From positions 682,001-746,000 of the forward strand of contig NZ_CP034145.1 in NCBI RefSeq assembly GCF_003856835.1: a stretch of 64,000 nucleotides of DNA, written 5' to 3'. Positions 3,771 to 60,679 of this stretch are shown here, in pieces. Below the pieces are notes generated by a model that worked only from the letters and a program-made list of their open reading frames with translations, searched no databases and was not told the DNA's origin. The stretch is from Haloplanus aerogenes (lineage in GTDB: Archaea; Halobacteriota; Halobacteria; Halobacteriales; Haloferacaceae). Every line of letters starts with the position of its first letter. The first letter of the stretch is position 1. The position numbers and the translations under genes are program-made.

Positions 3771-5555
3771 TCAGCGCGCCCGCTCCGACACACGCATCTC
3801 GACGCCGGTCGTCGTGAACTCGAACCGTGCGCCACCCGCCGCTCCTTCGGTCACGTCGACTGCCCACCCGTGGGCCTCCGCGATGGTCCGGACGATGTTG
3901 AGTCCGAACCCCGTGCCTTCGGGGTCGGTGGAGTAGCCCGTCTCGAACACCTTCTCACGCTCCGACTCGGGAATGCCGGGACCGTCGTCCTCGATGTAGA
4001 AGCCGTCCGTCGTCCGCCCGACGGTGATCGTCACCTCGGGGGTGTCGTCATCGTCGTTCGCGTGCCCGCCTCGCCGGAAGTCTCCCGAGTCGGCCCCTTC
4101 GGCCGGCACGGGCGACGACTGGTTGTCCGCCCCACCGGCGTCGAGTGGGGTGTCGGTCGTCGTCGACGAGTCGGTGGAGCCGTGTTCGACGCTGTCGTCG
4201 GCCTCCGGTCGACTATCCGTGGAACCGTGTTCCACGCTATTCCGAAACAGGTTCTCGAACACCTGCGTGAGGCGGCTCTCGTCGGCTTCGACGGTTCCCG
4301 GGTCGCCGTCGAATCGGAGCCGTGCGTGTTCGGTGTCGGTGGTCGTCCACGCGTTCTCTGCGATCGAGCGGAGATCGACGGACTTGACGTCGTTTACCGT
4401 CCGACCGTATCGAGACAGCGTGAGCAGATCGTCGATCAGTTCGTCCATGCGGTCGAGCGCGCCCGCGATCCGGTCTAACCGCTCGTCGTCCACCTCCATC
4501 TGTACGAGGTCGAGGTTGCCGGTGGCGACGGTCAACGGATTGCGGAGATCGTGTGAGACGACGCTCGCGAACTCGTCGAGCCGCTTGTTCTGTCGGGCGA
4601 GTTCCTGTTCCCGGCGGGCGAGTTGCTCCCGGGCCGCCATCGAGTCGATGGTGTGGCCGATGCTCTCGCCGAGTTCGGAGAGCGCCTCTTGCTCCTGCGG
4701 ATCGAACGCGTTCACGCGGTTGGCGTAGACGCTCAGGAAGCCGTGGTTGCGGTTGGCGCCGACGAGGGGGACGACCGCCATCGACTCCACTCCCTTCTCG
4801 GCCAGCAGATCCCACCATGGCTTGAGGCTCGGATCGTCGAACACGTCCTGTATCGGCTGGATCTCGCCCGTTCGGATCGACTCGCCGCCCGGCCCCTGGC
4901 CGGTCGGATCGGTCGGATCGACGGTGACCTCCAGGGAGTCGATATACTCGTCGTCGTGACCCGCCCACGCCGCCGGTCGCACGAATTCGTCACCGGGCGT
5001 GTAGCGGCCGATCCACGCACTGTCGTAGATGTTGGAGTCGGTCAACCGCTCACAGACCTCCTGTTCGAGTTCACTCCGTCCGGTGGCGTTCACCATCTCC
5101 TGGGTCGCGATGCGGAGCGTGTCGTTGATGCGGGTCAACTGCTCCGCTCGTCGCCGCTGACACTGCCCGCGGGCGTCGTAGACACCGACGACGAGGCCGA
5201 CGAGGGCACCCAGAGTCGTGGCGTTGCCCACCGTCCGCGCTGCCGCCGGCACATCCTGTCCGCGAATCGCGGCGTCGACGAACAGCCAACCGACCGCGAC
5301 GCTCAGCGCCACCATCCCGACGGTGGTCCAGCCGAGCACCCGGTCGGCGTGCTGTGTCGGGGCGATGTCCCCCTCGCGGATCAGCGCACCTGCGCCCGCA
5401 ACGAATAGCGCCAGTGCTAGCGGGACGATCGCTTCGATCAGTACCAGTGCTGGAAACGCCTGTAAACGCACGGCTGACTGCAGGTGAAACACTGCGAGGA
5501 CGAGTCCGGCACCGCAGATGATCGTCCCGCTCGTTCGTGCGGACAGTCGTCCCAT
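3771..5555 (-). CDS. Membrane-anchored GAF-domain sensor histidine kinase
   Basis: 594 residues. Order: four predicted membrane helices (about 5-125), a GAF-like sensor domain (about 140-300), a dimerisation/phosphoacceptor domain with 'EFASVVSHDLRNPL' (about 325), then a HATPase domain with N-box 'ENLFRNSVEHGS', G1 'DDGPGI' and G2 'GTGFGLNIV'. The start at 5555 is favoured because a strong TATA box lies 30 bases upstream. A roughly 60-residue acidic, low-complexity insert follows the N-box and repeats the VEHGST motif (see repeat at 4173-4236). No response regulator is adjacent, which is common for haloarchaeal kinases. The signal is unknown. Confidence 0.9.
   Translation of the reverse strand: MGRLSARTSGTIICGAGLVLAVFHLQSAVRLQAFPALVLIEAIVPLALALFVAGAGALIREGDIAPTQHADRVLGWTTVGMVALSVAVGWLFVDAAIRGQDVPAAARTVGNATTLGALVGLVVGVYDARGQCQRRRAEQLTRINDTLRIATQEMVNATGRSELEQEVCERLTDSNIYDSAWIGRYTPGDEFVRPAAWAGHDDEYIDSLEVTVDPTDPTGQGPGGESIRTGEIQPIQDVFDDPSLKPWWDLLAEKGVESMAVVPLVGANRNHGFLSVYANRVNAFDPQEQEALSELGESIGHTIDSMAAREQLARREQELARQNKRLDEFASVVSHDLRNPLTVATGNLDLVQMEVDDERLDRIAGALDRMDELIDDLLTLSRYGRTVNDVKSVDLRSIAENAWTTTDTEHARLRFDGDPGTVEADESRLTQVFENLFRNSVEHGSTDSRPEADDSVEHGSTDSSTTTDTPLDAGGADNQSSPVPAEGADSGDFRRGGHANDDDDTPEVTITVGRTTDGFYIEDDGPGIPESEREKVFETGYSTDPEGTGFGLNIVRTIAEAHGWAVDVTEGAAGGARFEFTTTGVEMRVSERAR
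4173..4236 (-). repeat. In-frame duplicated VEHGST hairpin repeat inside kinase N-box
   Basis: Two copies spaced 45 bp apart encode VEHGST. The copy at 4218-4236 is a perfect 8-base-arm hairpin with a 3-base loop (CGTGGAAC-CGT-GTTCCACG); the copy at 4173-4191 is degenerate. The duplicated copy carries Asp-Ser in place of the N-box Asn and so cannot replace it. Confidence 0.7.
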
Positions 5556-8207: not shown

Positions 8208-8651
8208 CTAAACGTGTTCCGTGCGCTCGATATACTGCTCAATCGTGTTGGTCGAAACGTCGCCTCCCATCCCAACGTAGTACGATTCCTCCCAGAACCC
8301 ACCGCCCCACAGATACTCCTCCAAGAACGGTTCGTGCTGTTCCCACATCTCTCGTGCTGTGATGCTCTTGACCGTCCGTACAATCTCGCTCGGTGCGTGC
8401 TTCGAGTGAGCGGAGAGGAACAAATGTACGTGGTCGGGTGAGATGTGGAGCGACAGTATCTCGTAGCCATACTCGTCGCACACATCGCGGAGACTCGCTT
8501 CCAGCGAGTCTTCGATTGGTTCGAGGATGGCATGGCGGTATTTTGGACATTGCAAATCGGAGATTTGCAAGCAGTCAATCTCCGATTGACGACACCACAC
8601 GAAGTGGTAGTTGACGTTGTACACCGTGTGGTTCGACCGCTTCTCACCCAT
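8208..8651 (-). CDS. tnpA: IS200-type transposase TnpA (Y1 HUH) with an in-frame insert
   Basis: 147 residues. The HUH motif is 'PDHVHLFLS' and the probable catalytic Tyr is in 'IEQYIERTEHV' near the C-terminus, so both active-site elements are present. Family members usually read straight from 'HFVWC' into 'PKYRH'; here 15 extra residues ('RQSEIDCLQISDLQC' type) separate them, encoded by two small hairpins at 8550-8590. Whether the protein still folds is unclear because the insert lies in the first beta-hairpin region. Start ATG 8651 was chosen from the usual N-terminus 'MGEKRSNHTVYN'. TnpA would excise and insert the element as single-stranded DNA. Confidence 0.85.
   Translation of the reverse strand: MGEKRSNHTVYNVNYHFVWCRQSEIDCLQISDLQCPKYRHAILEPIEDSLEASLRDVCDEYGYEILSLHISPDHVHLFLSAHSKHAPSEIVRTVKSITAREMWEQHEPFLEEYLWGGGFWEESYYVGMGGDVSTNTIEQYIERTEHV
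8550..8590. repeat. Double 3-base-loop hairpin inserted in tnpA
   Basis: TTGCAAATC-GGA-GATTTGCAA at 8550-8570 and GTCAATC-TCC-GATTGAC at 8574-8590 are perfect hairpins with 3-base loops. Their cores are also reverse complements of each other. The inferred insert is 45 bp, so the reading frame is kept. The insert is AT-richer than the surrounding gene. Confidence 0.65.
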
Positions 8652-8704: not shown

Positions 8705-8841
8705 ATGACGAAACGACTGTCCGTGGACTTCGAGGATGACGTGTATAAGGAGTTCTCGAAGAAGTGCATCGAAGTTGATGAACTAAGTCCGACGTAGTTC
8801 GCGGACTCGTCAACGACTGGCTCAACGAATCCGAAGAATGA
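8705..8841 (+). pseudogene. Frameshifted ribbon-helix-helix-like accessory gene of the IS element
   Basis: ATG 8705 opens a frame reading 'MTKRLSVDFEDDVYKEFSKK', the start of a small CopG-like protein commonly carried between tnpA and tnpB in haloarchaeal elements. It stops early at a TAG (8798-8800). Adding one base near 8784 restores a frame ending '...VVRGLVNDWLNESEE' whose TGA overlaps the tnpB ATG (ATGA at 8838-8841). The simplest reading is a single-base deletion. The intact protein would be about 45 residues; its role in the element is not known to me. Confidence 0.7.
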
Positions 8842-10112
8842 CCGACACACAGGCTCTCATCAAGACGCTGGACTTCCAACTCGACATCCAGAGTGACAAC
8901 GAGAGCCTACTGTACGACGCCACCGTCGAAGCACGGTCGGTGTACAACGAAACCATCCGCCTCGCCAAAGAAGGTGTGGACTGGGACGCCATCCCCGACA
9001 GGGTAGCCGACGACGCTGACCTCGTGAAGAACACGACTCAGCGCGTCGTTGCGAAGGAACTCGGTGCGATGGAGAACTACTACGAGTACGACGACTTCGG
9101 CCAGCCGAGCCACACCAAGGACGGCGCGTATCCGCTTCGAGCAAACTACGAGGAGGGCTACAACCTGTCGCTCACCGACGATGGCAACGTTGCGTTCCGC
9201 ATCAGCGCGAAACCGTACAAACACGTCAAGGGCGTCCTCGACGGTGACGACGCCCACCTCGACATTCTCAAGACTGCCCTCACGAACGACGAGTGGAAGA
9301 TTGGGACGGCAGAAGCCCTGTTCCACAACGACAACGCCGAGTTGCACGTCAACGTCACCAACACCGAACAGACCGTCCGCGTCAAGCAGAACTCACGAAC
9401 GGTCGTCAGTGTGGACGTGAACGAGGACAACGTGGCTCTCACCGCGCTCTCAGAAGATGGCGTCGAGGACTCGTTGGTTATCGACTTCCCCGAAATCAAG
9501 TTCGAGCGCCATCGCTACTTCACGATGCGGAGGCGTGTGCAGAACGCGGGGAAGTCGAGTATGCACGATACGTTGGAAGGGCGTGAGGAACGGTTCGTCC
9601 GTGACCGACTCCACAAAGTGAGTCGTCACATCGTGGAGTGGAGCCGTCAGTTCGAGAAGCCGTGTATCGTCTTTGAAGACCTCAAAGAGATGCGCGACAG
9701 TATCGACTACGGTACGCGGATGAACCGACGCTTGCACCACCTCCCGTTCCGCGCCCTTCAGTTCTATACGTCGTACAAAGCGTCGTTCGAGAGGATTCCG
9801 ACCACGTGGATTAACCCCGAGTACACGAGTCAACGGTGTCCGATGTGCGGTCACACGGAGCGTGCGAACCGGAACAAGAAGCGGTTCAAGTGTCGGGGCT
9901 GTGGGCATCAAGACCACAGCGACCGTGGTGCAAGCGTCAACATCGCCGTGAAAGGCGTGAAGAAACTCGAATGGAATGTGCCTGCTCTCAACAGCCTTCC
10001 CCAAGTCAGGAAGGTGCGACGGCAGGCATCGGGGGTCGTGGACGCCCCGACCGTGACCCACCCGACCGACCGAGGCTATCAGGCCGATGGTCGAGTGGGA
10101 GTGTCCGACTAA
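8838..10112 (+). CDS. tnpB: TnpB RNA-guided nuclease of the IS200/IS605 element
   Basis: 424 residues. RuvC-type catalytic residues are visible as Asp in 'VVSVDVNEDNVAL' (about 194), Glu in 'CIVFEDLKEMRDS' (about 280) and Asp in 'DHSDRGASVNIA' (about 363). Between the last two lies the zinc ribbon 'CPMCGHTE...KCRGCGH'. Length and motifs match intact haloarchaeal TnpB. Work on related proteins showed that TnpB is guided by an RNA from the element's right end to cut the donor site and so preserve the transposon. Translation is coupled to the broken upstream accessory gene (ATGA overlap), which could lower its expression. Confidence 0.9.
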   Translation: MTDTQALIKTLDFQLDIQSDNESLLYDATVEARSVYNETIRLAKEGVDWDAIPDRVADDADLVKNTTQRVVAKELGAMENYYEYDDFGQPSHTKDGAYPLRANYEEGYNLSLTDDGNVAFRISAKPYKHVKGVLDGDDAHLDILKTALTNDEWKIGTAEALFHNDNAELHVNVTNTEQTVRVKQNSRTVVSVDVNEDNVALTALSEDGVEDSLVIDFPEIKFERHRYFTMRRRVQNAGKSSMHDTLEGREERFVRDRLHKVSRHIVEWSRQFEKPCIVFEDLKEMRDSIDYGTRMNRRLHHLPFRALQFYTSYKASFERIPTTWINPEYTSQRCPMCGHTERANRNKKRFKCRGCGHQDHSDRGASVNIAVKGVKKLEWNVPALNSLPQVRKVRRQASGVVDAPTVTHPTDRGYQADGRVGVSD

Positions 10113-16833: not shown

Positions 16834-18135
16834 TCAGGGATCGCTCGCGGCCGCCGATCCGCCGGCGACGGGGTCCGAACCGGGTGGTCGGGTCGGTTCC
16901 CGCGCTTCTTCGTGCTGCTCGTCCGCCGGGATGCGGTCGGCTCTCGGCAGCGTCACGGTCGCGATGGCGCCGCCGTCGTCGGCGTTGCGGACGGTGAACT
17001 CGCCGTCGTAGGTCTCGACGATCCATCGGACGAGCCAGAGACCGATGCCGTCGCTGTGCTGGAGCGCCGTCTCAGTCGCTTCGGCGTCGGCGTGGACGGC
17101 GAGTTCGGCGGGGGTGAACCCCGGGCCGTCGTCCTCGATGCGGAGTTCGACGGCGTCTCGCTGTCCTCGTCGCTCGACCGGACGGACGGTCACTCGGAGC
17201 CAGGGGTCGTCGGTGCGTTCCGCGGCGTCGTCGCGGTCAGCGCGCCGACTGCCCGTTGCCCCGTATTCGACGGCGTCACCAGACTGCGTCTGGTTGCCTG
17301 TCGAACCGCGTTCGACAGCGTCCTCGGGAGTCGGCGACCGGGGGTGCGTGGAGCCATGTTCGACGGCGTTCCGAAGCAGATTGTCCACGACCGACGAGAG
17401 GAGGTCGTTCGCTTCCACGTACGCGTCCTCGATATCCGTCTCGACGGTCACGGTCTCGGTCGAGCGCCGGAGTTCGTCGAGGCGGTCGCGCACGAGTGCC
17501 CCGAGGGCGACCGGCTTCGTCTCCGTCGTCGAGCCGAGCTCGTCGAGCCGGTTCGCGGCGCCGCTCAGGCGTTCGATGTGTTCGAGTTGCTCGCGGATCA
17601 CGTCGGGTGACTCCGGTGGCGACGAATCCGTACCGGTCACGAGGTCGAGGTGGCCACGGATCAGGTTGAGGCTGGTTCGGATATCGTGGCGAAACAGCCG
17701 CAGAAACACGCTGTTGCGCTGGTTGAGCGTTCGCGTCCGTTCGTGTTCGGCGCGGAGTTCGAGGAGGGAGCCGACGAGGACGCCAACGACTCCGCCGGCC
17801 GCGATGTTGACGAGGACGACGCTTCGCCACCCGACGCCCCTGAGTACCGACGGCATCAGCAAGATGACGAGGACGGCCACCAGCGTCGGCAGACCGAGGC
17901 CGAGCGTCGACCACCCGGCGACCCGCCAGACGCGGTCGTCGTCGAGCGTACTCTGAGCGAGCCCGATCCCGGTCACGAGGAAGCTCCCGGCGATCATCCC
18001 GCCCATGCTGAGGCTGAGCAGCGACCGTACTTCCGTGGACTCGATCGGAAGGAGGACCCCGGCGCTGCAGACGCCGAACAGCACGACGCCCACGCCGATG
18101 AGATAGCTCACCCCGAGGTCTCCCTTCGACACCAT
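16834..18135 (-). CDS. Membrane sensor histidine kinase with repeat-expanded N-box
   Basis: 433 residues. About four membrane helices (10-125), a short linker, an H-box ('LRLFRHDIRTSLNLIRG', about 146-162) and a HATPase domain with N-box 'VDNLLRNAVEHGS', G1 'EDDGPGF' and G2 'SDGIGLWLVRWIV'. There is no PAS or GAF domain, so sensing is probably by the membrane region. Between the N-box and the next strand about 60 extra residues contain degenerate copies of VEHGST spaced 15-16 residues apart (repeat at 17255-17364). The C-terminus is a Pro/Ala/Glu-rich tail. No response regulator is adjacent. Confidence 0.88.
   Translation of the reverse strand: MVSKGDLGVSYLIGVGVVLFGVCSAGVLLPIESTEVRSLLSLSMGGMIAGSFLVTGIGLAQSTLDDDRVWRVAGWSTLGLGLPTLVAVLVILLMPSVLRGVGWRSVVLVNIAAGGVVGVLVGSLLELRAEHERTRTLNQRNSVFLRLFRHDIRTSLNLIRGHLDLVTGTDSSPPESPDVIREQLEHIERLSGAANRLDELGSTTETKPVALGALVRDRLDELRRSTETVTVETDIEDAYVEANDLLSSVVDNLLRNAVEHGSTHPRSPTPEDAVERGSTGNQTQSGDAVEYGATGSRRADRDDAAERTDDPWLRVTVRPVERRGQRDAVELRIEDDGPGFTPAELAVHADAEATETALQHSDGIGLWLVRWIVETYDGEFTVRNADDGGAIATVTLPRADRIPADEQHEEAREPTRPPGSDPVAGGSAAASDP
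17255..17364 (-). repeat. Three VEHGST-type hairpin repeats inside the second kinase
   Basis: Units at 17348-17364 (VEHGST), 17300-17316 (VERGST) and 17255-17271 (VEYGAT) are spaced 48 and 45 bp apart. The middle unit is a perfect 9-base-arm hairpin with a 3-base loop, CTGTCGAAC-CGC-GTTCGACAG (17298-17318). A fourth, weaker copy ('AAERTDD') follows about 45-48 bp further on. Confidence 0.7.
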
Positions 18136-38762: not shown

Positions 38763-40211
38763 ATGCGCCTCCACTGGCACCGGACGGATCTGCGGCCATC
38801 GGACAACCTCGCGCTGGTGAGCCCCGATGACAGCGAGGAGCCACGCTCCTCGGGGAGCCGGCCTCCGGCCGGCGACGACCCGATCCTCCCGGTGTACGTT
38901 TTCGACCCGAAGATTCTCGACCACGCCGCCCCGCCACGCGTCGCGTTCGTCCTCGACAGCCTCGCCGCCCTCCGCGAGTGGTACCGGGACCGCGAGAGCG
39001 ACCTGCTCGTGGTCCGCGGCGAGGCGCCCGCCGAACTCGCCCGCCTCGCCGACGACTACGGGGTCGACACAGTGTCGTGGGCGCAGGCCTACTCCGGATT
39101 GGGTCGACGCCGGGACGACCGGGTGGCCGACCACCTCAACGAGATGGGCGTCGAGACCCGCATCGTCCACGACCACCTCCTCCACGAACCGGGGTCGATC
39201 ACGACGAACGCGGGGGAGCCGTACTCGGTCTACAGCTACTTCTGGAAGAAGTGGAAAGATCGGGAGAAACGGGGATCGGTGCCGGGGCCGGGCGCGGATC
39301 GACTCGCCGACCCACCGCACGACACACCGATCCCCACGCTCGACGACCTGGGCTTCGACCGCCCCGAAGCCGAGATTCCGCCCGGCGGCTACATGGAGGC
39401 GCGGCACCGCCTCAACGACTTCTGTTCGGACGACATCTACCGCTACGAGGACGCCCGCGACGACCCGGCGGCGAACGCCACTTCCCGGCTCTCGCCCCAC
39501 CTGACTCACGGGACCGTTGGCATCCGGACGGTCCACGACCGGGTGGTGCGCGCCCGCGAGACGGCGCCCAACGACGCGACTCGGGAGGCGGTCGAGACGT
39601 TCCGCGGCGAACTCGCGTGGCGGGAGTTCTACCACCACGTCCTCTACTTCAACCCCGAGGTGGTGACCGAGAACTACCGCGACTACGAGAACCCTATCGA
39701 GTGGCGCGACGACCCCGAGGCTCTACAGGCGTGGAAGGACGGCGAGACGGGCTATCCCATCGTCGACGCCGGGATGCGCCAGTTGCGCGCGGAGGCGTAC
39801 ATGCACAACCGCGTGCGGATGATCGTCGCCTCCTTCCTCACGAAGGATCTCCTGATCGACTGGCGCGAGGGGTACGACTGGTTCCGGCGGAACCTCGTCG
39901 ACCACAACCCCGCGAACGACAACGGCGGCTGGCAGTGGGCCGCCTCCACGGGCACCGACGCTCAGCCCTACTTCCGCATCTTCAACCCGATGACACAGGG
40001 CGAGCGTCACGACCCCGACGCCGAATACATCCGCGAGTACGTGCCCGAACTCCGGGGCGTCGACGCCGATCTGATCCACGACTGGCACGACCTCTCCCCG
40101 ACCCAGCGCCGGCGGACGGCGCCCGATTACCCGGCGCCCATCGTCGAGCACAGCGAGCGCCGGGAGCAGGCGCTGGCGATGTTCGAACGAGCGCGGGGGG
40201 AAGACGACTAA
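38763..40211 (+). CDS. phr: Deoxyribodipyrimidine photolyase (class I) with small hairpin insert
   Basis: 482 residues. Start 'MRLHWHRTDLRPSDN' is the typical photolyase N-terminus. The FAD domain shows 'SRLSPHLTHGTVGIRTV', 'ELAWREFYHHVLYFNP', 'DAGMRQLRAEAYMHNRVRMIVASFLTKDLLIDWR' blocks and 'NDNGGWQWAASTGTDAQPYFRIFNP'. It splits cyclobutane pyrimidine dimers using blue light. Residues about 21-40 ('SPDDSEEPRSSGSRPPAGDD' region) are an in-frame insert encoded by a double hairpin, just before the usual 'ILPVYVFDP'. The insert is in a surface loop of the chromophore domain and probably tolerated. Convergent with azlC. Confidence 0.93.
   Translation: MRLHWHRTDLRPSDNLALVSPDDSEEPRSSGSRPPAGDDPILPVYVFDPKILDHAAPPRVAFVLDSLAALREWYRDRESDLLVVRGEAPAELARLADDYGVDTVSWAQAYSGLGRRRDDRVADHLNEMGVETRIVHDHLLHEPGSITTNAGEPYSVYSYFWKKWKDREKRGSVPGPGADRLADPPHDTPIPTLDDLGFDRPEAEIPPGGYMEARHRLNDFCSDDIYRYEDARDDPAANATSRLSPHLTHGTVGIRTVHDRVVRARETAPNDATREAVETFRGELAWREFYHHVLYFNPEVVTENYRDYENPIEWRDDPEALQAWKDGETGYPIVDAGMRQLRAEAYMHNRVRMIVASFLTKDLLIDWREGYDWFRRNLVDHNPANDNGGWQWAASTGTDAQPYFRIFNPMTQGERHDPDAEYIREYVPELRGVDADLIHDWHDLSPTQRRRTAPDYPAPIVEHSERREQALAMFERARGEDD
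38829..38876 (+). repeat. Paired 3-base-loop hairpin element in photolyase gene
   Basis: Hairpins CGAGGAGC-CAC-GCTCCTCG (38834-38852) and GCCGGCC-TCC-GGCCGGC (38857-38873), both perfect, joined by GGGAG-type linker sequence. It begins GACAGCGAGG and ends CCGGCGAC, as does the copy in azlC. In frame with phr, in sense orientation. Confidence 0.75.
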
Positions 40212-40986
40212 CCCAACTGACCCCGGAACAGCAACACGGCGACGACGCCCACCACCAGTGCGAGGAGGACGCTGTCGGTGCGGTGCGCGACTAGCACGAC
40301 GGCCACCCCGGCGGCAGCGACTCCCCACGGCGCGACCGAGCGCCGCCCCGGCCAGAGGCCGGCCGCGATGGTCAGAAAGACCGCCGTCAGGACGAAATCC
40401 AGCCCGTAGCGCGCGGGGTCGCCGATGGCGCTCCCCGCCACCGCGCCGGCGACGGTCGCGACGATCAAGAACGCCCAGATAGCCAGTCCGCTCCCCAGCA
40501 GGAACGCGCCCCGGCCGCTCCCGTCGCGGAGGTCACGCACCGTGAGCGCCCAGTTCTCGTCGGTGATGAAGAAGACGCTCGCGTACGTCTCCAGCGGCGA
40601 CAGCTTCTCGAACCACGGCCGGAGGGCGGCGCCCATCAGGACGTACCGGAGGTTGATGACGAAGGTGGTGAGCAGGACGGCCACGACCGGAATGGGCGTA
40701 TCCCAGAGTTCGACGGCGACGAACTGGGCGCCGCCGGCGAGGACGGTGGCGCTCATCAGCGCCGCTTCGGTGACGCTCAACCCGACGCGACGGGCGAGCA
40801 TCCCGAACACGAGGCCGTAACCGGCGACAGCGAGGAACGACGTTCCTCGGGCAGCCGGTGCGACGCGCCGGCGACGCCGAGCGCGACGGGGAGGCAGGCC
40901 ACGACCCCCGCCCACGCGTCTCCGGCCGCGAACGTCACGTCGTCGTCGGCAGACGACTCAGTCCCGGTGGAGGGCTCGGCGGACAT
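40208..40986 (-). pseudogene. AzlC-family amino-acid/permease gene disrupted by a 47-bp hairpin insertion
   Basis: The first part reads from ATG 40986 ('MSAEPSTGTESSADDD...AWAGVVACLPVALGVAG') and then shifts frame. The rest continues in another frame as 'VAGYGLVFGMLARRVGLSVTEAAL' through the AzlC core ('GGAQFVAVEL', 'NLRYVLMGAALRPW', 'FITDENWAL') to 40208. Removing 47 bp between two copies of CCGGCGAC restores a continuous AzlC protein of about 240 residues. AzlC with AzlD exports branched-chain amino acid analogues; no azlD follows. A late in-frame start could still yield a shortened protein, but loss of function is likely. Confidence 0.75.
40821..40875 (+). repeat. Paired hairpin element with 8-bp flanking direct repeats in azlC
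   Basis: CCGGCGAC occurs at 40821-40828 and 40868-40875, 47 bp apart. Between them are CGAGGAAC-GAC-GTTCCTCG (40831-40849, perfect) and GCCGGTGC-GAC-GCGCCGGC (40854-40872, one mismatch). The element is antisense to azlC. The flanking repeats look like a target duplication. Confidence 0.75.
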
Positions 40987-57309: not shown

Positions 57310-58330
57310 GCGAGTCGATAAGACGCTCCATTACCTCAAGCGTTCCGTCGGCAACGCGCCCGAGCGCGCCCGCACGCTCGGCTAGCCGGAGCGCACCGCC
57401 CATACCCGCACCCTCCTTCGCTTCCCCCGCGGCGTAGCGAGCGAGCGCGTCGTCCCGCCCGGCGAAGCCGGGGTCGGTGACGACGAGGTCGCAGTCGAGG
57501 GCCTCGGTCGCCGCCGACAGATCGGCATCGGCGGCGACGTACGTCGTCGCCGCGACGGTCAGCGGCGCTGCGACGCCGGCATGACGGAGCAGCGCGGCAG
57601 CGGCGAGCATCTGTGTCCCGCCACCGAGCACCACCTCGGTCCCCGACTCCAGTGCCCCGGCGGTGAGTCCGGCGACGACCGCCAGCACCGGGTCGCCCAG
57701 AAACCGGACGGCGAGTTCCGGGTGGTAGGCCGCCTCGCCGGGCGCAACGTCGCTCGCCTCGAACGCGGCGTCGATCACCTCCCGTTTCAGGTCGAGCGGA
57801 TTCTCCGGCAGCGACGACGAAACGGTGATACCGACGGCTTCGCCGTCTTCTCGAGGTGTCTTCGACACCTCGCTGACCCCGAGCGCCCGACAGACCCCGA
57901 GTGCGGTCGTAGTGCCGCCGGGAATCGTCTCGCCGATCACGAGTTCGTCGTCGGGGAGCGCGCGCCCGAGGTCGCGGGCGGCGACCCACGCCCCCGGCGC
58001 GGTCGGCACCGGATCGACCTCGCGCACGTCGCGGCCGGGTTTCGCGCCCACGTCGACGGTCGGTGCTCCGGTCGGCTTGGCGAGGCCGGCGTCGACGACG
58101 AGCGTCTCGAATCCGACCGCCTCGCGGACCGCGCGGGTGACGGCCGCGGGCGTCGGACATCCCGTCGGACTCACCGGAACCTCCGGTGCGCGCACCAGAC
58201 GGCCGTACTCGATCAGTTCCGCGTCGGCGCTCGGCGTGTGGGGCAGGAGGTTGGGGTCGGCACCGGCGGCGCTGATGCCGTCGATCCGCGCCGTCGCCGT
58301 CGTTCCGGCGACGAGGACGAACCGCGTCAC
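57299..58330 (-). CDS. CobT-type nicotinate-nucleotide phosphoribosyltransferase (TIGR00303-like) with hairpin insert
   Basis: 343 residues. Features: 'VVDAGLAKPTGAPTVDVG', 'DDELVIGETIPGGTTTALG', 'VLGGGTQMLAAAALLRHAG' and 'DPGFAGRDDALARYA'. Related proteins activate the lower ligand base for cobalamin. After 'GVCRALGVS' about 15 residues ('EVSKTPREDGEAVGIT') are extra compared with what I expect of the family; they are encoded by a paired hairpin element (57830-57876) and keep the frame before 'VSSSLPENPLDLK'. The activity is probably retained, but this is untested. Confidence 0.83.
   Translation of the reverse strand: MTRFVLVAGTTATARIDGISAAGADPNLLPHTPSADAELIEYGRLVRAPEVPVSPTGCPTPAAVTRAVREAVGFETLVVDAGLAKPTGAPTVDVGAKPGRDVREVDPVPTAPGAWVAARDLGRALPDDELVIGETIPGGTTTALGVCRALGVSEVSKTPREDGEAVGITVSSSLPENPLDLKREVIDAAFEASDVAPGEAAYHPELAVRFLGDPVLAVVAGLTAGALESGTEVVLGGGTQMLAAAALLRHAGVAAPLTVAATTYVAADADLSAATEALDCDLVVTDPGFAGRDDALARYAAGEAKEGAGMGGALRLAERAGALGRVADGTLEVMERLIDSHGP
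57830..57876 (-). repeat. Paired 3-base-loop hairpin element in cobT-like gene
   Basis: Two perfect hairpins, GACGGC-TTC-GCCGTC (57833-57847) and CGAGGTGTC-TTC-GACACCTCG (57852-57872). On the minus strand it begins GTCAGCGAGG and reads like the elements in phr, azlC and cbiB. Sense orientation, in frame. Confidence 0.75.
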
Positions 58331-58884: not shown

Positions 58885-59618
58885 GCGATCACCCCCGCGT
58901 GCAGCGCCGCGATCCGGCCGAGTTCGTTCGCGGCACCCAGCACGTCGCCGGTGATGCCGCCCAGCCGACGCGTTCCCCATCGGCCGACGAGGAGGGCGAC
59001 GAGCGGGCCGGCGACGAGTGTGGCGGCGAGCGCCGGCCCGCTCCCGCGGGGGGCGGCCAGCGCGGCGGGGACGGCGGCGACGACCACCGGAAGCAGGGCG
59101 GCGCTGTCGGCTTCCCCGACGACCGCCGACCCTAGCCCCTCGTGACCGGGCGTGCCGAGGGCGACGAGCGCCGCCATGCCGACCTTGGCGCTCACCTCCG
59201 CCGCGAGGACGAGACGGACGGCGACCCGCGGGCCGGAACCGGCGACGCCGAGGCCGCCGAGCGCGAGGGCGACGAGCGCGAGTCCGACCGCGAGCGCGCC
59301 GCCGACGCCGGTCTGTGAGTCCTTCAGGACCGACCGCCGGTCCGCGTCGGCGCCGTGGACCGCGGCGGCGTCGCCACAGTCCGCGAGACCGTCGACGTGC
59401 GTGACGCCGGTGACGAGATAGAGCGCGACGAGATAGCCCGCGACCGCCGTCGAGACGGGGAGTGGCGCGAGGAGCGGAAGGGCGGCCAGCGCGCCGACGA
59501 CGTAGCCGGCGACGACGAACGCGACGGGCGTCCGCCGGAAGGCGTCCCACGCCGCTTCGTCGCCGCCGACGGGCAGGCGCGTCAGGAAGGCGAGCGCGCC
59601 GCGCACGGCCGTCAACAC
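58869..59618 (-). CDS. cobS: Adenosylcobinamide-GDP ribazoletransferase (cobalamin synthase)
   Basis: 249 residues from GTG 59618, with many membrane helices. The catalytic and family residues are in 'ALAFLTRLPVGGDE', 'VTHVDGLADCGDAAAVHGADADRRSVLKDSQTGVGG' (Mg-binding Asp motif in the latter) and 'LGGITGDVLGAANELGR'. It joins the activated lower loop to the corrinoid in the membrane. Overlaps cbiB by 7 bases. Complete. Confidence 0.9.
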   Translation of the reverse strand: MLTAVRGALAFLTRLPVGGDEAAWDAFRRTPVAFVVAGYVVGALAALPLLAPLPVSTAVAGYLVALYLVTGVTHVDGLADCGDAAAVHGADADRRSVLKDSQTGVGGALAVGLALVALALGGLGVAGSGPRVAVRLVLAAEVSAKVGMAALVALGTPGHEGLGSAVVGEADSAALLPVVVAAVPAALAAPRGSGPALAATLVAGPLVALLVGRWGTRRLGGITGDVLGAANELGRIAALHAGVIAWTLW

Positions 59619-60679
59619 GCGGCGATCACCCCCACGGCCGCCAGCCCGAACGCCAGCCATCCGGCCCGTGAGACGACGGCGACGCCACGCTCGGCGGCCG
59701 CGCGCGTCGGCAGGTCGTCGGACCCCGTCCGACTGTCACCGGCTTCGCTCACCGGACTGCGTCCGGTGGTCTGAGGGACGTCGTCCCTCTCTGCCCGAGG
59801 CGTCTCCGACGCCTCGCTGTCGCCGGACCGTGTCCGGCTTCCGGCGGTGCGTCGCACCTCCTCGTCCGGGGACCGTCGATCCTCGATCAGGTCGTACGCG
59901 CCGGGCTTGCTCAGCCGAACGCCCAGTACGACGGCGAGCGTCGCCATCGGCCATCCGGCGTTGGGTGAGGCGGGTCGGCGAGCGAGCGGACGGGCGCGGC
60001 GGAGGGCGTCGGGCCGCCCCGCGGCGACGGCCAGCAAGCCAGCGCTCGTGCGTGCGGGAATCCACATTACCACGTCGTCGAGGCGGGCGGGCGCCCAGCC
60101 CATCGGCACCGAGCGGTAGCCGAAGGTGGAGTCGAGGGTGTTGACGGCCTTGATCCACGCCGCGGCGCCCGCGGCCGCCGGGAGCGAGAGCGGCGCGAGG
60201 AGGGCGAAGCCCGCGAGTGGGGCGACGAGGCCGTCGCTCAGGTTCTCTGCGGCGCTCTCGACGGCGGCGCTGCGCACCTCGCCCGCGGAGAGGGCGGCGG
60301 CGTCCCGGCCCGCGAGCGAGCGCAGGCGCTCCCGCGCGGCCGCGAGGTCCGTCTCGCTCGCGGCGACGACGGCGCGTGCCTCGTCCAGCAGCATCCGCCG
60401 ACTGGTCGAGACGAAGCAGGCGAGGCCGGCGAGGGCAGCGCCGACGAGCGGGTCGAGTCGCATCCCGAGGGCGACGACGACGGCGACGACGCCCGCGGCG
60501 GCGAAGGGGACGAACAGTGCCGTGGCCACTCCGGCCAGTCGCGGGTGGGACCATTCGCGGTCCAGTGGGCCGAGCGCCCGGCCGAGCCACGCGACCGGGT
60601 GGAGGGACGCGGGGGGTTCGGCGACGAGGCGGTCCCCAACCGCGGCGAGGGCGACGCTCCCGGCGGCGAGGAGGGTCAC
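59612..60679 (-). CDS. cbiB: Adenosylcobinamide-phosphate synthase with a hairpin-array insert
   Basis: 355 residues. The membrane-protein core has 'LAAVGDRLVAEPPASLHPVAWLGRALG', 'WIKAVNTLDSTFGYR' and 'PARLDDVVMWIPAR'. Near residue 270 a long hydrophilic stretch of about 60 residues ('RSPDEEVRRTAGSRTRSG', 'ASETPRAERDDVPQTTG', 'SEAGDSRTGSDD') replaces the usual short loop. It is encoded by an array of at least six 3-base-loop hairpins (59717-59858) and returns to the family's final helix ('AVVSRAGWLAFGLAAVGVIAAC'). The frame is intact. It attaches aminopropanol to cobyric acid. Confidence 0.87.
   Translation of the reverse strand: MTLLAAGSVALAAVGDRLVAEPPASLHPVAWLGRALGPLDREWSHPRLAGVATALFVPFAAAGVVAVVVALGMRLDPLVGAALAGLACFVSTSRRMLLDEARAVVAASETDLAAARERLRSLAGRDAAALSAGEVRSAAVESAAENLSDGLVAPLAGFALLAPLSLPAAAGAAAWIKAVNTLDSTFGYRSVPMGWAPARLDDVVMWIPARTSAGLLAVAAGRPDALRRARPLARRPASPNAGWPMATLAVVLGVRLSKPGAYDLIEDRRSPDEEVRRTAGSRTRSGDSEASETPRAERDDVPQTTGRSPVSEAGDSRTGSDDLPTRAAAERGVAVVSRAGWLAFGLAAVGVIAAC
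59717..59858 (-). repeat. Six-hairpin array (all with 3-base loops) inside cbiB
   Basis: In plus-strand order: GTCGGAC-CCC-GTCCGAC, CACCGGAC-TGC-GTCCGGTG, GAGGGAC-GTC-GTCCCTC, CGAGGCGTC-TCC-GACGCCTCG, GCCGGAC-CGT-GTCCGGC and GGTGC-GTC-GCACC, at 59717, 59750, 59773, 59796, 59822 and 59846. All arms are perfect. The fourth is preceded on the minus strand by GACAGCGAGG, the shared element start. Confidence 0.8.

Follow-up and report, generated by a model that had tools for sequence, protein, structure and literature searches.

The cbiB gene of Haloplanus aerogenes codes for a membrane protein of cobalamin biosynthesis, and in the window analysed here (the whole stretch of 64,000 nucleotides, positions 682,001 to 746,000 of contig NZ_CP034145.1) it carries a cluster of tiny hairpins, raising the question of what these structures are and how they came to lie within an otherwise normal coding sequence. 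The initial annotation described six perfect hairpins with three-base loops at 59717-59858, inserted in frame. Five of them are perfect, with arms of 7-9 bp and loops of 3 bases, whereas the sixth, a 5-bp stem at about 59845-59857, is weak by itself and is read as a decayed copy because it aligns with a full stem in a second array, located in a PAS-domain kinase gene. A seventh, decayed hairpin lies outside the extent first proposed. The features of the locus are the following:

59612..60679, minus strand: cbiB (cobalamin biosynthesis membrane protein), the host gene, with orthologues in 31 of 40 relatives
59714..59887, minus strand: in-frame insert of 58 codons in cbiB, a partly decayed tandem array of double hairpins
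59717..59733, minus strand: hairpin in cbiB, 7-bp arms, loop of 3, of the second-hairpin type
59750..59768, minus strand: hairpin in cbiB, 8-bp arms, loop of 3
59773..59789, minus strand: hairpin in cbiB, 7-bp arms, loop of 3, closable to a loop of 1
59796..59816, minus strand: hairpin in cbiB, 9-bp arms, loop of 3, of the first-hairpin type (CGAGGCGTC/GACGCCTCG)
59822..59838, minus strand: hairpin in cbiB, 7-bp arms, loop of 3
59867..59885, minus strand: decayed first hairpin in cbiB, perfect in the orthologue of G003, the nearest relative (CGAGGACC-GAC-GGTCCTCG)

An ordinary loop of the CbiB protein is ruled out by the orthologues, 28 of the 29 examined having a short loop and lacking the insert, and the proposed in-frame interruption of CbiB is borne out. 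A shorter in-frame version is present only in the nearest relative, which dates the first insertion to before the split from that genome. Chance pairing in GC-rich DNA is likewise ruled out, on the evidence of Markov-4 shuffles and of control counts with other loop sizes. Specifically, the whole window holds 20 loop-3 hairpins with arms of at least 7 bp against a Markov-4 shuffle mean of 9.9, and its densest 125 bp contain four such hairpins (59773-59789 being scored here as loop 1), while shuffles never contain more than two. The stretch is thus missing from orthologues and the hairpin density lies above that of shuffled sequence, the opposite of the two outcomes (a shared but unpaired stretch, a shuffle-like density) that the initial annotation had named as fatal to its claim.

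The cbiB hairpins belong to a dispersed two-hairpin unit of 45 bp, repeated here in a tandem array that has decayed. The consensus of the unit is GACAG-[stem 8, loop 3]-GGCA-[stem 7, loop 3]-GAC, and the unit keeps the same length in a variant with stems of 9 and 6 bp. Each unit encodes a peptide of about 15 hydrophilic residues (e.g., DSEGRSPSGNRTQSG or DSVEHGSTGSRTESD). The description of the cbiB array as something other than a simple tandem repeat is right about the stems, which vary, but not about the arrangement, which is a degraded tandem one. In the gene of the PAS-domain histidine kinase, unrelated to cbiB, units follow one another with a 45-bp period, and the two arrays are 86% identical over 123 columns. 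Moreover, the DNA of the cbiB array has matches at many sites elsewhere in the H. aerogenes genome, and the start GACAGCGAGG is, as first noticed, common to phr and other genes. Within the window, further units and the genes around one of them are located as follows:

4194..4241, minus strand: unit within the N-box of a histidine kinase (ENLFRN-SVEHGSTDSRPEADD)
8208-8650, minus strand: tnpA of an IS200/IS605-type pair, with an AT-rich double hairpin antisense in its N-terminal coding region
8546..8593, plus strand: AT-rich unit, with the geometry of the others, antisense inside the IS200/IS605-type tnpA
8838-10112, plus strand: tnpB of the IS200/IS605-type pair, divergent from tnpA
17275..17322, minus strand: unit in a histidine kinase, adjoining the N-box (VEHG)
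38829..38876, plus strand: single unit within phr, which codes for DNA photolyase and for which congeners show a clean 45-bp empty site
40826..40875, plus strand: unit upstream of azlC or at the beginning of that gene, outside the usual reading frame
57828..57875, minus strand: variant unit of 9+6 bp in a cobT-like gene, its hairpin kept in the orthologue of the nearest relative through compensatory changes

Three side observations concern individual sites. Units of the VEHGST type (among them 4194-4241 and three further loci) lie at the N-box of kinases and duplicate its VEHG sequence, a hint that insertion was guided by homology or that the unit originated from the N-box. Among five congeneric loci of the cobT-like gene, some keep a perfect hairpin, others have loops of similar length that are decayed or unrelated, and others have neither, which may represent successive stages from insertion to decay. 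In the congener G002, the HAD-type phosphatase gene just upstream of cbiB has a unit (GCGAGGCGTCGGAGACACCTCGGGGAGGCGGCGGAGCCGCC), while cbiB itself is empty.

The geometry of the unit sets it apart from background pairing. In a 464-kb sample of the genome, partly picked around BLAST matches so that the count is raised and is not an unbiased density, 26 loop-3 double hairpins lie 20-26 bp apart, against 0-1 in Markov shuffles, and 17 of the 26 have a spacing of exactly 22. Control loops of 1, 5, 7 and 9 bases give only 1-2 double hairpins in the same 464 kb, which is the level of chance, and this specificity for loops of 3 is unaffected by the sampling.

As proposed at the outset, it is the pairing that is conserved and not the sequence. 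At stem positions of the first hairpin that were held out of the pattern scan, 290 of 296 cells pair in haloarchaea, against 9 of 32 at the same positions in eight bacterial matches, which are accordingly discarded as chance matches whose stems do not pair. When copies are selected on one hairpin and scored on the other, HP1 is perfect in 71 of 87 and HP2 in 78 of 110. Both sides change in 11 of the 15 pairs of the seed alignment, a covariation that is only illustrative because the seed was chosen for perfect pairing. Compensatory stem differences also occur between orthologous copies in the cobT-like and beta-CASP genes. The AT-rich copy at 8546-8593 retains the geometry despite its different base composition, and non-coding copies in Halorubrum have the same design. 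This non-coding version, found at eight loci of Halorubrum and a related MAG, has a longer last stem (CCGGCGGC/GCCGCCGG), and at some of these loci another unit precedes it.

Location within genes, on the sense strand and in one fixed frame, applies to about 90% of copies: 64 of 74 haloarchaeal copies in the pattern-scan set share strand and frame, as do about 44 of the 50 classified copies of the H. aerogenes genome. The host proteins are unrelated to one another and include photolyase, the HisG family, endonuclease III, KptA, DHH and MFS proteins, kinases, dehydrogenases, and proteins of the PPDK and lipoamide-dehydrogenase types. The conserved frame and the open reading frames suggest that the insert is translated and tolerated. 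Of all GAC sites in coding DNA, 37% are in frame in sense and 31% in frame in antisense, and target preference alone is therefore insufficient to account for the bias. Selection against other insertions would be the simplest reason for it, and a bias of the insertion mechanism could be another.

Single insertion events can be recognised where orthologues differ by one unit. Clean 45-bp empty sites lie beside GAC (Asp) codons in orthologues of phr, hisG, an MFS gene and a beta-CASP gene; at other loci relatives also lack the unit, and the clean cases amount to only about four because several sites lie in loops of variable length. At the beta-CASP gene, 30 of 30 sampled orthologues are empty, with sequences such as VLVDDGET or VLVDDGDT. 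In eight filled copies an extra 45 or 42 nt follows either the first GAC or the second, which means that this spot was hit at least twice independently. GAC stands on both sides of the insert junctions, making a 3-bp duplication indistinguishable from an element-borne end.

The cbiB array is, as suspected from the start, one instance of a wider element that is specific neither to this gene nor to this genome. A covariance model finds at least about 60 copies in the H. aerogenes genome (E < 0.01) and copies in at least 36 of 40 relatives across the order, the copy counts being lower bounds since no more than 150 candidates per genome were scored. Scanned with the sequence pattern, about 85,000 species give matches almost only in haloarchaea, among them Halorubrum, Natrinema, Haloplanus, Halorussus, Haloarcula, Halosimplex, Natronomonas and other genera. 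No match to the pattern was found in viral contigs, and a virus-borne element is ruled out on this ground.

The repetition, geometry and pairing of the units are directly supported, as are their in-frame location, the empty sites, the recurrence of insertion and the distribution across the order; taken together, these features probably mark a haloarchaeal family of short mobile, translated palindromic elements that functionally resembles the Rickettsia palindromic elements (RPEs). RPEs are palindromic repeats found in frame in unrelated housekeeping genes, where their peptide is tolerated, and also in intergenic regions (PMC2229807, PMC10969869). The behaviour of an in-gene, in-frame element in unrelated conserved proteins, which had been suggested as the nearest analogy, is shared by the haloarchaeal unit and by RPEs, including those of Wolbachia. 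However, RPEs have a conserved sequence and form a single long stem-loop of about 105-150 bp (PMC2229807) with terminal inverted repeats, whereas the haloarchaeal unit has 45 bp, with two 3-nt-loop hairpins whose stems vary freely; it occurs in tandem arrays and belongs to archaea. RPEs being longer single palindromes, the unit is not classed as a member of their family. Repeats fused into protein genes are also on record for an archaeon, Methanocaldococcus jannaschii, whose coding palindromes (Suyama et al. 2005) are cited in PMC2996958 and PMC2229807. The Haloquadratum PATEs, which include a 52-bp terminal-only form, are haloarchaeal and transposase-free, with palindromes near both ends and no target duplication. 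The geometry of the unit fits this design, and its GAC junctions agree equally with an element end and with a 3-bp duplication. PATEs differ in that they are IS605-related, are targets of other repeats, and in the parts of that report available here are not described as in-frame gene insertions (PMC3119063). Among TnpAY1 subclasses, only the IS200-like one has been reported from Archaea (PMC6006769).

The analogy with REP/RAYT systems (REPtron, BIME, REPIN), also raised initially, holds for the numerous short hairpins paired in composite units and breaks down elsewhere: REPs are mainly extragenic, whereas most haloarchaeal copies lie within genes, copy number does not follow that of Y1 (TnpA/RAYT-fold) genes, genomes rich in elements can have no Y1_Tnp match, and no dedicated RAYT was found. 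The double-hairpin elements (DHE) of fungal mitochondria consist of two consecutive hairpins with compensatory variation of the stems. By this description they resemble the haloarchaeal unit, and they differ from it in being organellar and mainly intergenic. No description of a haloarchaeal double-hairpin element was found in open-access full text, a coverage that leaves out most subscription journals.

As to the way in which such a family might arise, the 45-bp unit would insert next to a GAC, so that this trinucleotide flanks it on either side, and would be retained within genes almost only when its hydrophilic 15-residue peptide is encoded in sense and in frame, which would keep the host protein whole. 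A repeated insertion beside the GAC that ends an earlier unit, or a duplication, could then generate the 45-bp tandem arrays of cbiB and the PAS-domain kinase. The hairpins would act at the DNA level, where an enzyme that recognises hairpins probably takes them as single-stranded substrates, and movement as hairpin DNA is the form of spread that we infer; alternatively, template-switch correction during replication may keep the stems perfect. The copies are presumably passengers that are not useful to the host. In its fullest form, this reading takes the units as order-wide 45-bp elements that are recognised by their structure and not by their sequence, have coding sequence, on the sense strand and in a fixed frame, as their main habitat, and are moved by an undescribed hairpin-specific enzyme, a proposal that is plausible and is held tentatively.

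A more specific form of the same explanation, possible and somewhat doubtful, regards the unit as a core-less minimal derivative of IS200/IS605 elements, PATE- or REPIN-like, consisting of two fused end hairpins. A Y1 HUH transposase acting in trans would move it in single-stranded form, with cleavage after the GAC at each end. GAC at both junctions with no longer duplication fits such a cleavage of target and end; the Haloquadratum PATEs, transposase-free IS605 relatives with near-terminal palindromes and no target duplication, offer a precedent (PMC3119063); and at 6 of 26 Y1_Tnp loci a double loop-3 hairpin lies at most 250 bp from the gene, whereas the other 65 kb of these loci contain 3. 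Spread dependent on Y1/TnpA was suggested by the AT-rich copy beside a Y1_Tnp match, and was rejected once this best-placed example proved to lie inside the tnpA frame and not at an IS end. Moreover, the numbers of Y1 genes and elements are uncorrelated (Spearman 0.23, p 0.16, with element counts as lower bounds), seven near-complete genomes have elements and no Y1_Tnp match, at least 36 and at least 55 element matches occur in G004 and G018, both devoid of such a match, and no IS was found with ends matching the unit. A spread with no dedicated transposition, by ectopic gene conversion or microhomology copying at GAC-rich sites together with quasipalindrome template-switch correction of the stems, is rather unlikely and is nonetheless a serious rival. 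It draws on the compensatory changes that arose in place in orthologous copies (cobT; beta-CASP, L118 versus L169), the similar numbers of G.T and A.C mismatches, the long stretch common to the cbiB and kinase arrays, and the histidine-kinase units that share VEHG-coding sequence with the adjoining N-box. Conversely, clean insertions of exactly 45 bp, whose linkers and geometry are the same in unrelated genes and distant genera, suggest a defined unit over local copying.

Two further readings place the cause in the mRNA or in the protein. That the pairing serves the mRNA, through processing, stability or translation pausing, is very improbable: copies transcribed within genes could fold, but antisense and intergenic copies exist, a known RNA family is set aside because an Rfam search with the unit found no match, and mismatches on the coding strand do not favour G.T over A.C (8 versus 6 in elements with at most two mismatches, 7 versus 16 in a looser set, small counts throughout). 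With no such excess, pairing is probably not maintained at the RNA level. Scarcely credible, and largely refuted already, is the view of the insert as a selected protein feature, i.e., a flexible acidic linker whose DNA pairing is a by-product of codon choice; the constant frame and the hydrophilic peptide agree with it, but residues change in a coupled way that preserves pairing (V...T to E...S), intergenic copies in Halorubrum retain the hairpins with no coding, as does the AT-rich antisense copy, the host proteins are unrelated, and most orthologues have no insert.

If the units are a family of mobile, translated palindromes, then protein-coding palindromic mobile DNA, chiefly known from intracellular bacteria with small genomes, would also be widespread in a free-living and genetically tractable order of archaea. 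Each copy adds about 15 residues to essential enzymes, forming a natural series of protein-insertion experiments and a source of annotation artefacts in the form of orphan hydrophilic loops of haloarchaeal proteins. The family may also be a clean system for studying how structure-defined elements move and why pairing persists while sequence drifts.

Lastly, double loop-3 hairpins near some tnpA genes differ from the unit in spacing and sequence. At five such loci, in several genomes, they have a spacing of 23-26 and lie upstream of the tnpA start or inside it, and they are possibly IS ends or a second family of elements.
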